This document shows positions 628-34,942 of a stretch of DNA of 34,942 nt, in pieces. Positions within the stretch are counted from its first letter, which is position 1. Each line of letters begins with the position of its first letter. Under the pieces are notes generated by a model. The model ran no database searches. It was given only the letters and a program-made list of their open reading frames with translations, and was not told the DNA's origin. The position numbers and the translations under genes were made by a program. Origin of the DNA: Sphaerochaetaceae bacterium (GTDB lineage Bacteria > Spirochaetota > Spirochaetia > Sphaerochaetales > Sphaerochaetaceae). Where the stretch lies: positions 1 to 34,942 of the forward strand of contig JAFGUP010000211.1 in the NCBI GenBank assembly GCA_016938475.1, in the 5' to 3' direction.

Positions 628-1866
628 TTACCGATCAAAGCTCTCCAGTTTCTGAGATATCATGCGTGTCATTTCAGGCTTCACTCCCCATTGTGGAGCA
701 AGGGAAGACCAGAGAGAGAGGGCTGAGCGAGTCTGTTCAAGAATTTCCTTCATGCGATGTCCCGGGATGTTCGCATGCTCCCCAAGTCTGACCAGATGCT
801 CCCTCGAGATGTGGCGCCCCTCGCCTGCTACCATGGTACTGTGCTCACCACCGGGACCGGCTGCGAAGGTAAGATCATAGGCGGGGGAGAACTTCCACTC
901 ACCATCATCACTCATGAGAAAACTGAAGTTCTTGGCATGATCGTCTCGGTTATGGGCAAGCACATTGAATACCGCAAGGCGGTACATCTTCTCAACTTCC
1001 CGAACATCGCGTGTCAGAGCTGCTGTCAGATCCAGCAGATCAGTGTAGTCAAGGGAAGGATAGCGGTAGTCGGTGTGAACCAGACCACTGACTGAATGCA
1101 TATGGAATCTCTTGTGTCCCTGTCTGTCAAACCGTTTCACACCAAAATACCCCGGGCCGCTGTGTGAGGAAAACAGGTGACTCGGAGGAACGTCTATTCC
1201 AGATTCCCGAGCAATCAGAGCATACACATATTCGATTGCTCCTGCATCGAGACCATCCTGAGTATTCGGGAATTTCACCATCCAGGAATCATATCCTTTC
1301 ATATACCTGTCACTACGCAGGCAATACTCACGATCTTCAGCAACCTGAATCGTTACCTTGGGTCGAGCTCCACCTGAGGATGCGTTGAGGGAAACCATCT
1401 GAGCAAGGACATCACTTGGCTCTCCCCGAAGGACGAGCCCTGTTTCCTCAGCAATGGAATCAAGTGTGGCAAAGTCACTATGAAAAGCAGGAACGGATTC
1501 CGGCTGATACACAAGTGCGCCCGGCCCGTCCATACCGACATACGCTAAACGATCCAGAGGAGTAAAATCAGAGGGTTGCACTCCTTGCGAACGGATATAG
1601 CGATCGAGCAACAGTCGCCCCCAACCATCAGGGAGCGAGTCATTGAACACCCCTGCCAATCCCTCGAACAGAGATCGGTCAAAGGTGTGCACGCCCTCCC
1701 GTAACGGGAGCATAAACGGAGAAAGTTCCAGACCCCTGTCAATAAAGTCAGAAAGATACTCGAAATATATCCTGTGCTCCTTCTCAGCAAGACGCCCGAC
1801 GGGGATCAGTTCTTCATTGAAGGATACAGAGACCTCGACGACCCTTACCGCCTTGAAATCCTTCAT
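628..1866 (-). CDS. hipA: HipA-type serine/threonine kinase toxin
   Basis: A 412-residue protein of the HipA family, kinases that in Escherichia coli phosphorylate glutamyl-tRNA synthetase and cause growth arrest. The N-terminal subdomain (about residues 1-110) carries the typical FNDSLPDGWGRLLLDR stretch. A Gly-rich loop with Ser163-Ser164 (NASSGGARPKV) sits where HipA proteins have their nucleotide or autophosphorylation loop. The catalytic loop is NRDDHAKNFSF with Asp308/Asp309 and Asn313. The metal-binding segment is SPAYDLTFA with Asp331. Length is close to the usual 430-440 residues and no key residue appears lost, so the toxin looks active. The ATG overlaps the antitoxin stop by 4 bases (ATGA), implying translational coupling with antitoxin first. 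The target here is unknown. Confidence 0.93.
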   Translation of the reverse strand: MKDFKAVRVVEVSVSFNEELIPVGRLAEKEHRIYFEYLSDFIDRGLELSPFMLPLREGVHTFDRSLFEGLAGVFNDSLPDGWGRLLLDRYIRSQGVQPSDFTPLDRLAYVGMDGPGALVYQPESVPAFHSDFATLDSIAEETGLVLRGEPSDVLAQMVSLNASSGGARPKVTIQVAEDREYCLRSDRYMKGYDSWMVKFPNTQDGLDAGAIEYVYALIARESGIDVPPSHLFSSHSGPGYFGVKRFDRQGHKRFHMHSVSGLVHTDYRYPSLDYTDLLDLTAALTRDVREVEKMYRLAVFNVLAHNRDDHAKNFSFLMSDDGEWKFSPAYDLTFAAGPGGEHSTMVAGEGRHISREHLVRLGEHANIPGHRMKEILEQTRSALSLWSSLAPQWGVKPEMTRMISQKLESFDR

Positions 1867-2171
1867 GTCTTCCTCCCTCTCTTTCGGTTCTGGACAGATG
1901 TTGAAGCAAGCAGGCTATCTATGCTTGCAACCGCATCCTGTTGCACCTTCGTAGCCTCAACGAACTTGTCCAACGTACCAAGCACCATCAGAAGCTGCAC
2001 TAAGGATTCAAGTGAGATCTTTCCCTGCTGTTCAAACCTGCGTATAGTGGGTACAGGAACCCCTGATCGTTTTGCAAGGCCTGCCTGGGTCAGGTTGAGT
2101 AGCAATCTCTGCTCACGAACGTTTTCTGCGATGGATTCAGTGGCCTTCTTTGGCGTCATAAATAATATCAT
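1863..2171 (-). CDS. hipB: HipB-like XRE-family antitoxin and repressor
   Basis: A 102-residue helix-turn-helix protein. Residues about 18-70 form the XRE fold (LLLNLTQAGLAKRSGVPVPT then IRRFEQQGKISLESLVQLL). The tail after residue 85 is basic (NRKRGRKT). HipB antitoxins bind HipA and repress their own promoter, and the order antitoxin-toxin with a 4-base overlap fits. The ATG at 2171 is preceded by a weak AGGAA at a long spacing. A second ATG at 2159 (MTPKKATES) would also give a normal protein but lies further from any ribosome site. The leader contains several TAGTA/TACTA boxes, one touching the start codon, consistent with autorepression. Confidence 0.88.
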   Translation of the reverse strand: MILFMTPKKATESIAENVREQRLLLNLTQAGLAKRSGVPVPTIRRFEQQGKISLESLVQLLMVLGTLDKFVEATKVQQDAVASIDSLLASTSVQNRKRGRKT

Positions 2172-6384: not shown

Positions 6385-7871
6385 TGGACACCTCCCATGG
6401 CATAGTGCAGGATTGTTTCTTCTTCAAGTTCATGGGCTTCAAGCTCCGCTTGTTTCTTCCCCTCATGCATCACCACTACCCGGTCACACATGCCGATGAT
6501 CTCAGGCAGTTCGGATGATACCATGATGATGGATTTCCCTGTGTGTACCAGCTCCTCAAGGAGATGATAAATCTCAGCTTTTGCCCCTACATCTATTCCC
6601 TTTGTCGGCTCATCCAGTATAAGCACTTCTGCATCAGTAGAAAGCCATCGGGCAAGTATGATCTTCTGCTGATTCCCTCCACTCAACTGACTTGTCGCAT
6701 AGGCCGGATCAGGTGGAGTCAGGTGTAGCACAGGAACAAAGGATAGGAAGTTCTCACGTTTGCGCCCATGATTGACGAACCGCCACCGCAGGAACTTGTG
6801 CATACAGGAAATACCCACGTTATCTTCATTGGAGATATTCTTGATAACCCCTTCGGTTTTCCTGTTCTCCGGGATCAGCCCTATCCCGGCGGCCACAGCC
6901 TGCTGGGGTGTGTTGATGGAGATCTTCTTTCCAGCCATAAAGATCTCACCGCTTGTCAGCTGTTCGGCTCCGAAAAGACATTTCATCACATCGGTTCTTT
7001 TGGCACCGACGAGACCACTGAATCCAAGGATCTCTCCCTTTCTCAAGGAAAAGGAGATATCCTCAAACACCTGTTTCTTCGTAAGATGCCTGGCTTCAAG
7101 CACCACCTCTGATGAAGCGACTCTACCTTGTAATCTCTGCGCAAACGCGGAGACATCCCGTCCGACCATTCTCCTGATAAGTTGCTCCCGATTGATATCT
7201 CGGGTTTCGAAGGTTCCGATATACTGCCCGTCACGAAGCACGGTCACCCTGTCGGCAACTTCAAAGATCTCTTCCAAACGGTGACTGACATACAGGATGG
7301 TGATCCCTGCCTGTTTCAGTCGCTTGATAAGAGAGAAGAGCACTTCAGTCTCACGATTTGATAAAGATGCGGTAGGTTCATCAAGGGAAAGCAGGCTAAC
7401 CTTATGATACATTGCCTTGGCAATGCTGATCATCTGCATCTCACCTGTGCTGAGTCCGTATATTGAATGTTCGCTCTTCAAGTCAAGCTGCAGCTCATCA
7501 AGAAGTGCCTGAGCCTTTGCATGGAGATTCTTATAGTCGATAAAACGACCCTTACGGGGTTCATATCCGAGAAGGATGTTCTGACCAATGGAAAGTGACT
7601 GAACGAGAGACACTTCCTGATGGACCTTTGCTACTCCCTGCTGAATAGCCTCGTGAGTATTCCTGAAATGAACGGGCGTGCCAAAGAGAGAGATCTCGCC
7701 ATCATACTCGGGATATACTCCGTGTAGGATATTTAGCAGGGTTGATTTCCCCGCTCCATTCTCTCCAACCAGAGCATGAACCTCTCCTTGCTTAATAGAG
7801 AAGCTCACATCCTGCAGGGCTTTAACACCAGGAAACTGCTTGGAGATATGGGTAAAAGTAATGTCCGGCAT
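6381..7871 (-). CDS. CUT2 sugar ABC transporter ATPase, two nucleotide-binding domains (RbsA/MglA-like)
   Basis: A 496-residue protein made of two ABC domains. Domain 1 (about 1-235) has Walker A GENGAGKST at 36-44, signature LSTGEMQ and Walker B LLSLDEPTASLS. Domain 2 (about 250-490) has the replaced Walker A GLVGAKRTD that is normal for the second half of MglA-type proteins, the signature LSGGNQQK and Walker B VLILDEPTKGID. It powers monosaccharide import through the adjacent permease. GAGGAGGG lies upstream of the ATG at 7871. The binding-protein gene ends 89 bases earlier and a perfect hairpin fills part of that gap. Confidence 0.94.
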   Translation of the reverse strand: MPDITFTHISKQFPGVKALQDVSFSIKQGEVHALVGENGAGKSTLLNILHGVYPEYDGEISLFGTPVHFRNTHEAIQQGVAKVHQEVSLVQSLSIGQNILLGYEPRKGRFIDYKNLHAKAQALLDELQLDLKSEHSIYGLSTGEMQMISIAKAMYHKVSLLSLDEPTASLSNRETEVLFSLIKRLKQAGITILYVSHRLEEIFEVADRVTVLRDGQYIGTFETRDINREQLIRRMVGRDVSAFAQRLQGRVASSEVVLEARHLTKKQVFEDISFSLRKGEILGFSGLVGAKRTDVMKCLFGAEQLTSGEIFMAGKKISINTPQQAVAAGIGLIPENRKTEGVIKNISNEDNVGISCMHKFLRWRFVNHGRKRENFLSFVPVLHLTPPDPAYATSQLSGGNQQKIILARWLSTDAEVLILDEPTKGIDVGAKAEIYHLLEELVHTGKSIIMVSSELPEIIGMCDRVVVMHEGKKQAELEAHELEEETILHYAMGGVQ

Positions 7872-26110: not shown

Positions 26111-26624
26111 CTATCCCCCCTCTGTGCCGGTCTTCAGACAAAGAGGAGCAGAACCTCTCAGATGAGCATGAAACACATAATATCCGAATCTCCCTGAAAT
26201 CCCATCTGCTCTGGTATAAGCAATTTCCCCACCAGGTATGATGGTTAAAGCTTCGGGCTCACTCAAGGCTCTCCCTTTTGGAAGTTGAGTCGCTTTCCTG
26301 ATCAAATGTGCCACTTCCAATAGATGAGCGGCACCCTCCGCTATGGAATAATTTCCCAACGTGAACTCAATCAACACATACCTACCATCATCCAAGTGAA
26401 GGACTGCATCTACCTCAAGATTTGACCTGTCGGTATCATACGAAATTCTCATTTCCCGAAGAGCTCGCATATGCTGTTACATCCCGTATACATAGATTTT
26501 CAAATATACATTCGTAGGTATGAAAATCCTTCAGTAGGAAGTCAGGACTTAAACCAAGAAAAGAAGTCATGATGGAGGGGTCGATAAACATTCTCTGTTG
26601 ATGGAGTGATTCGTTCACACACAA
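26111..26624 (-). pseudogene. Frameshifted C-terminal remnant of a DUF4143 ATPase
   Basis: Two adjoining minus-strand frames encode parts of one DUF4143 protein. The first (26624 to about 26470) reads FIDPSIMTSFLGLSPDFLLK and FENLCIRDVTAYA; the second (about 26470-26111) continues LREMRISYDTDRSNLEVDAV, then the nuclease-like YVLIEFTLGN and EALTIIPGGEIAYTRADG. The switch falls near 26462-26470 and needs a one-base change. The N-terminal ATPase half is missing: the remnant begins directly at the stop of the DeoR gene (26615). It is therefore a truncated and frameshifted pseudogene of the same broad family as the partial gene at 2-415, though of a different subgroup. Confidence 0.8.
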
Positions 26625-32997: not shown

Positions 32998-34425
32998 ATG
33001 AGTAACACAGTAGAGCGGTATGTGGGCTTCGATTGCGGAAACTCATCGGTACGCACCGTGGTGGGAACCTTTGACGGTTCCCGGATAACCACAGAGGTGA
33101 TCCATCAGGTACCCAACAGAGAACTGCGCGGGGTCACCTATGATCACTGGGATATCCTCACCATCTTCCATGAGATGCTCACAGGCATGAAGCTCGCCTG
33201 CGACACCTACGAGGACATACACTCCTTCGGGATCAGCACCTGGGGAATCGATTTCGGTTTCCTGGGGAAAAGCGGGGACCTGCTCGGCAATCCCCTGTGC
33301 TACCGCAACCCGCTCGGAGGACAGGGACTGGAAAGCAGAACCGCAGAGGAGTCGGTACGGATGTTCGACGATACGGGAATACTGAGCCTCCCCATGAACA
33401 GCATCTTCCAGCTTCTTGGTATCAGGGAACAGCTCCAGGAGTATTATGAGAGCGCCGAGACACTGCTGCTGATACCCGATCTGCTCAACTACCTGTTCAC
33501 CGGGGAGAAAAACAGTGAGCTCTCGATCGCAAGTACGACTCAGACCGTGGATATGAGAACGAGAGCTTACAGCGAGAAGATATTCGAATCGACCGGCATA
33601 CGCAGTGACCTGTTTGTCCCCTTCGTATCTCACACACAACCTCGCGGCCTCATCAGAAAGGAGATCGCAGAACTCTACAGGATCCCCCGTCTCACCGCGA
33701 TCTCGGTTCCCTCCCATGACACGGCCGCTGCCGTGGTGACAGTGCCTGCACGTAGTGAGAACTTCGCGTTCATCAGCAGCGGAACCTGGTCTCTCATCGG
33801 AACAGAGCTCCCTGAGCCACTGATCAATGACAGGGTGCGGGAAGCGGGATTTTCCAATGAGGGGGGAGTTTTTGATACGATCACCCTCCTGAAGAACTCC
33901 TGCGGCATGCATATCCTTCAGAACATCAAGAGGGAAATGGAGTTCACGGGTAATCGCAGGTATAGCTGGGATGAAATCGTCTCTCTTTCCGCTCCTGTGT
34001 TGAAGAGTGAGGATGTGGTCACCTACGACCCCAACAGCGAGCTCCTGTACCACCCCGATTCCATGATCGAGGCAGTCAAATCCCTCACCGGTCTTACCGA
34101 CATCGCCCATGTGCTCGCATCAAGCTACCGCTCCCTTGCACAGAGTTACCACAAAGCAATAGACGACCTTGAGGCTATCACCTGCACGACCTATGATACA
34201 GTCCACATCATAGGAGGAGGATCCCGAAACGACCATCTCAACCAGATGACGGCCGACCTGACAGGAAAGCGGGTGACCAGCGGACCCGAGGAGGCGACAA
34301 GCCTCGGAGTGATCGCCGTACAGCTGATGCACTATCATCGGGAATTCACTCTGAAGGACCTGAGGAATATCATACGGGAGTCTGTGACTATTCGGGAGTT
34401 CCTTCCAAAGGAGGAGCACGTGTAA
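32998..34425 (+). CDS. rhaB: FGGY-family kinase, rhamnulokinase-like
   Basis: A 475-residue FGGY kinase close to E. coli RhaB in length. The N-terminal ATPase fold starts VGFDCGNSSVRTVVGTF. The rhamnulokinase-like STWGIDFGFLGKSG lies near residue 81. The catalytic base is in VPSHDTAAAV, followed by FISSGTWSLIGTE, NEGGVFDTITLLKN and the C-terminal phosphate/adenine region VHIIGGGSRNDHLNQMTADL. It should phosphorylate a ketose such as L-rhamnulose at O1, feeding the class II aldolase encoded first in the operon. In Rhizobium leguminosarum the equivalent RhaK is also needed for sugar transport. No isomerase gene is seen in the operon. Confidence 0.88.
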   Translation: MSNTVERYVGFDCGNSSVRTVVGTFDGSRITTEVIHQVPNRELRGVTYDHWDILTIFHEMLTGMKLACDTYEDIHSFGISTWGIDFGFLGKSGDLLGNPLCYRNPLGGQGLESRTAEESVRMFDDTGILSLPMNSIFQLLGIREQLQEYYESAETLLLIPDLLNYLFTGEKNSELSIASTTQTVDMRTRAYSEKIFESTGIRSDLFVPFVSHTQPRGLIRKEIAELYRIPRLTAISVPSHDTAAAVVTVPARSENFAFISSGTWSLIGTELPEPLINDRVREAGFSNEGGVFDTITLLKNSCGMHILQNIKREMEFTGNRRYSWDEIVSLSAPVLKSEDVVTYDPNSELLYHPDSMIEAVKSLTGLTDIAHVLASSYRSLAQSYHKAIDDLEAITCTTYDTVHIIGGGSRNDHLNQMTADLTGKRVTSGPEEATSLGVIAVQLMHYHREFTLKDLRNIIRESVTIREFLPKEEHV

Positions 34426-34435
34426 TGCACCTGCT

Positions 34436-34942
34436 TCAGGTTCTCAGAATGAGTGGCATTTGCACTTTTTGTGCAATATATCTGTGATAGGTAGCGTTGA
34501 AATCCGGATAATCGGTATAGTCATCATACAGAACGTCCCAACTGCACTGTTTTTCCAGAATCTTTTTCAGGTATTTCTCAGGGCGGCTCCGGCAATCATG
34601 AAGTTGACAAAAATTCCGCCGGATCCGAACTTGTCTGTAACTTTCCTGACCAGCGCGGTTTCACCAGGAATGTCCTGTCTGTTGAAATGCAGCATCGAAT
34701 CCAAGAGGATGATGTCATAATCTCCCTGCATGTCCCAGGAATGGATATCAGCATGCATGACCGTAACATCCAGCTCTTCAGATCGTGCAAAAGCGCTCAA
34801 CTGGTCCAGTCCGACCTGAGATATATCAATTCCCGTCACGGTGAATCCCTGTCGAGCACTGTGCAGAGTACGTGCACTGTGCAGAGTACGTGCACTGTGC
34901 AGAGTACGTGCACTGTGCAGAGTACGTGCACTGTGCAGAGTA
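34436..34942 (-). pseudogene. SAM-dependent methyltransferase, frameshifted, 5' end outside window
   Basis: The frame entering from the right edge encodes a class I methyltransferase core: QGFTVTGIDISQVGLDQLSA (motif I end and the acidic loop), VTVMHADIHSWD (motif II), YDIILLDSMLHF (motif III/IV) and GSGGIFVNFMIAGAA. It then stops at 34567. A different frame continues without a stop from about 34579 to 34436, reading EKYLKKILEKQ, then WDVLYDDYTDYPDFNATYHR, which looks like the expected C-terminus. One C lost from the run opposite 34581-34583 (GCCGCC followed by CTGAG) would explain this. Upstream, an 18-base tandem repeat adds TLHSAR units. The gene converges on the kinase gene, 10 bases away. 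Confidence 0.75.
34856..34942. repeat. 18-base tandem repeat, about 4.8 copies, reaching the window end
   Basis: The unit GCACTGTGCAGAGTACGT repeats perfectly from 34856: four full copies and 15 bases of a fifth before the sequence ends. Because 18 is a multiple of 3, the methyltransferase frame stays open and gains the peptide TLHSAR per copy. The true copy number cannot be seen from here. Confidence 0.95.

Follow-up and report, generated by a model that had tools for sequence, protein, structure and literature searches.

Why does a contig of a draft genome stop inside a perfect tandem repeat, and does that repeat belong to the organism or to its assembly? The question is raised by the 34,942-base stretch of DNA analysed here (hereafter the window), which is the entire contig C7 (JAFGUP010000211.1) of a Sphaerochaetaceae bacterium (assembly GCA_016938475.1). 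At its right-hand end lies an array of 18-base units, within a gene for a methyltransferase that uses S-adenosylmethionine (SAM). Our reading, to which we give a probability of about three in four, is that the last bases of the window belong to a second copy of a TehB-like methyltransferase gene, a copy probably in decay, in which a two-unit precursor was expanded by slippage or unequal recombination, and that the contig was cut one k-mer into the array. The finding would then be unremarkable: a repeat that expanded within a gene copy that is probably broken, and that the assembler shortened.

A perfect in-frame array at the end of the contig

Tandem Repeats Finder described the 87-base array as having a period of 18, 4.8 copies and a 100% match, with a score of 174, and its end coincides with the last base of the contig. 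Read on the minus strand, which is the direction of the gene, it consists of four copies of ACTCTGCACAGTGCACGT, followed by ACTCTGCACAGTGCTCGA and then by CAGGGATTC..., and its translation gives TLHSAR five times, then QGFTVTGIDIS. The unit length is a multiple of three, the units are 100% identical and the frame is kept, as in other intragenic in-frame tandem repeats. The number of units varies between related gene copies, with one in all five relatives, two in a sister gene of the same genome and 4.8, as assembled, in the window copy.

An earlier inspection of the letters without database searches (the sequence-only reading) had proposed nearly five perfect 18-base TLHSAR copies, placed in frame within a methyltransferase and next to the SAM-binding motif. 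The copy number and the match agree with the repeat finder, and the placement agrees with the translation and with a Pfam match. The adjoining motif could be confirmed by way of the sister gene, since the contig stops before motif I of the window copy is reached.

The genome is a draft of 3.07 Mb in 395 contigs, with an estimated contamination of 3.44%. Repeats and contig ends were surveyed in 142 of these contigs, the other 253 lying outside the survey, which amounted to 948,816 bases, 115,783 of them masked as N, with 13 contigs covered to 20 kb only. It returned 26 tandem-repeat rows with a score of at least 50, a few of which describe one array more than once, with overlap, and the window array ranked first, its score of 174 being followed by 90 for the runner-up. 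A chance origin of the array is not plausible. The second-highest row, at positions 4336-4380 of contig C71, was a 12-base unit in 3.8 perfect copies.

A sister gene with two units and relatives with one

Pattern and protein searches of the organism's own genome located a sister gene on contig C35 (5569-6141), with an unbroken frame of 190 residues and a putative TTG start. It reads GQGRD-SLHSAR-TLHSAR-QGF, that is, with two units. C35 extends beyond the gene on both sides, and its sequence 3' of the methyltransferase is unlike that of C7, where a sugar kinase gene follows. Because the downstream sequences differ, the two copies most likely occupy different loci, a comparison that concerns the downstream side, the upstream flank of the C7 copy being beyond the contig end.

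Homologues in other genomes were rare: one in 100 genomes of relatives, three in 296 of a class sample and three in 391 of a phylum sample (E thresholds of 1e-20, 1e-15 and 1e-12), the samples overlapping so that five distinct genomes were involved (G089, G131, G242, G386 and G466). A single unit stood at the array site in 5 of 5 relatives (L011, L013, L014, L015 and L016), for example GQGRDSLSLAKIGY in L014, and the solved structures 2i6g, 4dq0 and 3m70 had six residues fewer there, in the three alignments shown of the ten matched. A more distant relative (L012; 30% identity in its best segment, and the only match of one contig scan) had no extra unit either; it was aligned and kept out of the count of relatives, as it is without the GRD motif. 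Since the five relatives and the three aligned structures carry one unit, this state is probably ancestral, two units being derived and the window array further derived.

None of 149 other genomes contained the two-unit pattern itself (31 bases, up to 2 mismatches), and viral contigs had no exact match to a 33-base form of it. Plasmid and phage records searched at E 1e-5 gave only distant methyltransferases (24 plasmid, 1 phage), all with less than 60% identity and with a query coverage that never reached 80%. On C35, at 6536-7394 (L006), the sister gene is closely followed by two small frames that look by eye like a nucleotidyltransferase and HEPN pair.

Identity of the methyltransferase

The window frame matched Methyltransf_25 (PF13649) in Pfam with an E of 9.2e-8 and 33.1 bits, for a cut-off of 27, and TehB more weakly. 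For the sister gene the same two families scored 48.9 bits (cut-off 27) and 39.4 bits (cut-off 20.4). It nevertheless fell far under the NCBIfam equivalog cut-offs for tehB (TIGR00477, 43 versus 219.5; NF008405, 41.7 versus 218; NF008992, 56.8 versus 303), and the name TehB is therefore withheld; by these profiles the gene is a TehB-like small methyltransferase of class I.

The hallmark of class I is motif I (DLGCGxG); a helix comes after it, and strand 2 ends in an acidic residue. The sister carries LDLGCGQGRD ... TGIDIS, and the window copy shows only GIDIS. Compared with the TehB-type class I SAM methyltransferases (PF03848, PF13649; structures 2i6g, 4dq0, 3m70 and 2xva), the gene belongs to the same family by sequence, and in each of the three alignments shown the GCGxGR motif precedes the array insert. 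It differs from them in its scores below the NCBIfam tehB cut-offs and in the extra six-residue units, which the three aligned structures lack. The features at this end of the window are collected in Table 1.

Table 1. Features at the right-hand end of the window, by position
Feature	Position	Strand	Basis
FGGY-family sugar kinase, neighbour converging on the methyltransferase copy, outside the array	32998..34425	+	profile
Remaining 3' part of the methyltransferase gene, in another frame, corresponding to sister residues 149-190	34463..34588	-	protein match
Second copy of the C35 methyltransferase gene (class I, SAM-dependent), an open frame of 124 residues with its 5' end missing; stops early after the frame break	34567..34941	-	Pfam, sister alignment
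Four closing bases of the last, family-fitting unit (34852-34855), then QGFTV, where the normal sequence begins (34837-34851)	34837..34855	-	sequence, alignment
In-frame tandem array (TLHSAR) of 18-base units, assembled as 4.8 copies, to the contig end	34856..34942	-	repeat finder, translation

Origin of the array

The two units of the sister gene are not the same: unit 1 runs TCT...GCACGT and unit 2 runs ACT...GCTCGA. In the window, four units of the form ACT...GCACGT are followed by a last one, ACT...GCTCGA, which is identical to sister unit 2 and fits the family sequence as had been proposed from the letters. The internal unit is an exact hybrid, beginning like sister unit 2 (ACT) and ending like unit 1 (GCACGT). 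As far as the sequences of the units tell, such a hybrid is the expected product of a two-unit array that mispairs by one unit and is then duplicated.

Downstream of the array, the window copy and the sister differ at 18 of 267 aligned bases, with a proportion of synonymous differences (pS) of 0.163 and of nonsynonymous differences (pN) of 0.039. If array and gene copy were of equal age, the 87 bases of the array should show about three changes (0.067/2 x 87). Because the internal units are identical among themselves despite this divergence of the gene copies, the array probably expanded, or was homogenised, after the gene had been copied.

From these comparisons we infer the following order of events. 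The ancestral gene would have had one six-residue unit after its GxGxGRD motif. A duplication to two units, placed most simply before the gene was copied, would have produced the state kept in the unbroken sister on C35. In the window copy, slipped-strand replication or unequal recombination would then have expanded the hybrid unit to an array of probably seven or more, and the folding of the array upon itself as single-stranded DNA could favour slippage. In the assembly graph such an array would form a loop, and the contig would stop exactly one k-mer, 87 bases, into it.

Why the contig ends in the array

Exact overlaps of one recurring length are the mark of the k-mer used by a de Bruijn assembler. 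The 271 ends of the 142 contigs were compared with one another, 128 of them being masked in their last 20 bases. Contigs C91 and C23 overlapped end to end by exactly 87 bases, and so did C111 and C11. Because two pairs share this exact length, a k-mer of 87 is suggested, and the pure tail of the window array is also 87 bases long. Two further matches were internal to a contig, C7 matching its own repeat and C74 matching itself over 20 bases.

In a simulation of de Bruijn assembly at k = 87, the contig passed single arrays at 9 of 9 lengths between 31 and 104 pure bases; at 6 of 6 lengths between 105 and 175 pure bases it broke off, leaving a tail of exactly 87. For mixtures of two array lengths, a tail of 87 was obtained in three of the seven cases, among them [103,121] and [87,105], which include an array of at least 105 bases; in the other four the contig broke off where the shorter array ended. 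A single array would, in this model, need at least seven units if its exit phase is that of the sister. The stop is thus probably technical, a short-read assembler not passing the repeat. Because the simulated single arrays gave the 87-base tail only from 105 pure bases upwards, the assembly seems to shorten the array rather than to invent it.

State of the window copy

A protein search matched the window copy to the sister in two frames, with a stop. In the alignment of the two DNA sequences, a single-base gap lies downstream of the array, and 20 bases are lost over the stop codon of the sister. The 5' half of the window copy was not found in the assembly, parts of it being masked. Because of the downstream frame break and the missing stop codon, the window copy, as judged from its sequence, is probably no switch but a duplicate in decay. 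A contingency locus is marked by reversible changes of copy number in a population, with a change of phenotype, and by an otherwise intact gene; the window copy, as assembled, has a frame break and lacks the sister's stop.

Several observations weigh against this account of a decaying copy with an array cut at k = 87. A third end-to-end overlap, between C68 and C38, is exactly 30 bases long and does not fit 87, and the end of C130 matches 49 bases inside C71; the proposed k-mer comes from two contig pairs, in a test limited to the 142 contigs surveyed and to their unmasked ends. In the simulation, the mixture [87,88] gave a tail of 87 without any array of at least 105 bases, though it would need an exit phase other than that of the sister. 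It is with an assumed assembler that the model strongly suggests a true array of more than 4.8 units. The start of the window copy, its exit from the array and the true array length lie beyond the assembled sequence.

The folding of the array fits slippage without proving it. As single-stranded DNA, the 87-base array forms a long hairpin; on one strand its fold surpasses all 200 shuffles and on the other strand 198 of 200, the shuffles being an imperfect control for a repeat, as they remove its periodicity too. The fold weakens with less sequence: one unit gave a z of 0.10, three units a z of -1.85 (8 of 200 shuffles as good) and the sister region a z of -1.13 (26 of 200). Finally, the single-base frame break could be an error, in a draft with this number of contigs and this contamination, and the pN/pS ratio between the copies is about 0.24 (0.039/0.163), a value that indicates past constraint on at least one copy, over much of the period after the two separated, and not decay alone.

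Alternative explanations

These last two points lead to a first alternative, in which the frame break is an error of sequencing or assembly. The copy would then be an active paralogue, intact and able to accommodate the long repeat as a loop or helix. The pN/pS ratio is in its favour, and in each of the two copies the extra units keep the reading frame. The deletion of the sister's stop-codon region, however, is a second lesion in the window copy, and structure prediction of the window piece, made without an alignment, was uninformative, giving no usable model (mean predicted local distance difference test score, pLDDT, of 36; predicted template modelling score, pTM, of 0.21). We regard an intact paralogue as unlikely.

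Somewhat less probable still is a working contingency locus, in which units of six residues, gained or lost within the helix that follows the SAM motif, would switch or tune the methyltransferase, as in mutL. The repeat is pure, in frame and directly after the cofactor motif, its unit number differs between two gene copies of one genome, and mutL, ahpC and tolA offer precedents (excerpts of PMC3477136 and PMC2955026). Against it stand the two lesions of the window copy and the absence of the two-unit pattern from the 149 other genomes. Tuning of an active enzyme by copy number, which the sequence-only reading had put forward as one possibility, is therefore not upheld: the window copy has a frame break and lacks the sister's stop, and an unbroken two-unit sister lies elsewhere. 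That reading had overlooked the sister, the frame break and the probably greater length of the true array. It was right about the methyltransferase and the in-frame site, and also about the expansion, as the single unit of the five relatives and the three aligned structures indicates; its suspicion that the sequence end inside the repeat marks an assembly limit agrees with what the 87-base overlaps and the simulation suggest.

The array might also be an artefact, the real locus having one or two units and the assembler having circled a false loop. The contig does end inside the array, the assembly is a fragmented draft, and trouble of assemblies at tandem repeats is documented in the part of PMC6868369 consulted. 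Single arrays of less than 105 pure bases, on the other hand, never stopped the simulated contig at k = 87, which also makes improbable the case of a single true unit, named by the sequence-only reading as its own refutation. Moreover, the hybrid internal unit is absent from the sister's two units, so that reads of the sister alone could presumably not have supplied it. We consider an artefact very improbable. The most novel proposal, to which we give hardly any credence, is that the helix after the SAM motif is a self-complementary, hypermutable site in this methyltransferase lineage, with the two-unit sister active but altered in cofactor binding and the long-array copy serving as the off state, or as the donor, of a copy-number switch whose unit number is reset by exchange between the loci.

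Comparison with known in-frame repeats

An expanded array in a decaying gene copy, the reading that we prefer, may be likened in its anatomy to the repeats of mutL, ahpC and tolA, as the available excerpts of the cited papers describe them. In mutL of Salmonella and E. coli, three six-base in-frame units lie at the lid of the ATP pocket, slipped-strand mispairing alters their number, and the protein is impaired when a unit is lost or added (PMC2955026, PMC3477136). Both cases have in-frame tandem repeats in the nucleotide-binding region of a protein; mutL, however, is a working gene in which allele conversion was measured (same sources), whereas the present array has 18-base units in about five or more copies, in a broken-looking gene known from its sequence alone. 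The tolA gene of E. coli has in-frame repeats of 15 or 18 bases in variable number, with contractions that depend largely on RecA (PMC3477136). Unit size and variability are similar, whereas the units here are perfect and lie in a catalytic fold. In ahpC of E. coli, the passage of a triplet tract from four to five copies confers a new activity (PMC3477136), which is likewise an extra in-frame unit in an enzyme; the triplet tract and the new activity are, however, particular to ahpC. No title or abstract opening that we found reports an expansion at this methyltransferase helix, the literature so retrieved offering analogues only.

The locus provides a worked case in which a sister gene helps to put in order the events behind a repeat at a contig end, and in which the length of the tail points to the k-mer of the assembler and gives a minimum length for the hidden array. 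Should the two-unit sister prove active, it would show that a methyltransferase of the Rossmann fold tolerates six extra residues right after the cofactor loop.

Other genes of the window

At the start of the window, the C-terminal end of a DUF4143 protein is cut by the contig start (2-415, plus strand). A frame of 119 residues at 26111-26470 (minus strand) had no Pfam match at 1e-5; by eye it resembles the C-terminal part of a DUF4143-type ATPase and is possibly a gene remnant. A HipA-like kinase gene (HipA_C, Couple_hipA) lies directly after a small helix-turn-helix gene at 628-2171 (minus strand), which makes them, by profile, a toxin-antitoxin pair of the HipBA type. Between 26615 and 34425, profiles identified a run of genes for a class II aldolase, a sugar-binding protein and the FGGY kinase of Table 1, and further frames between and beside them look by eye like parts of an ABC transporter and a regulator of the DeoR type; the region is perhaps a cluster for the uptake and breakdown of a deoxysugar.
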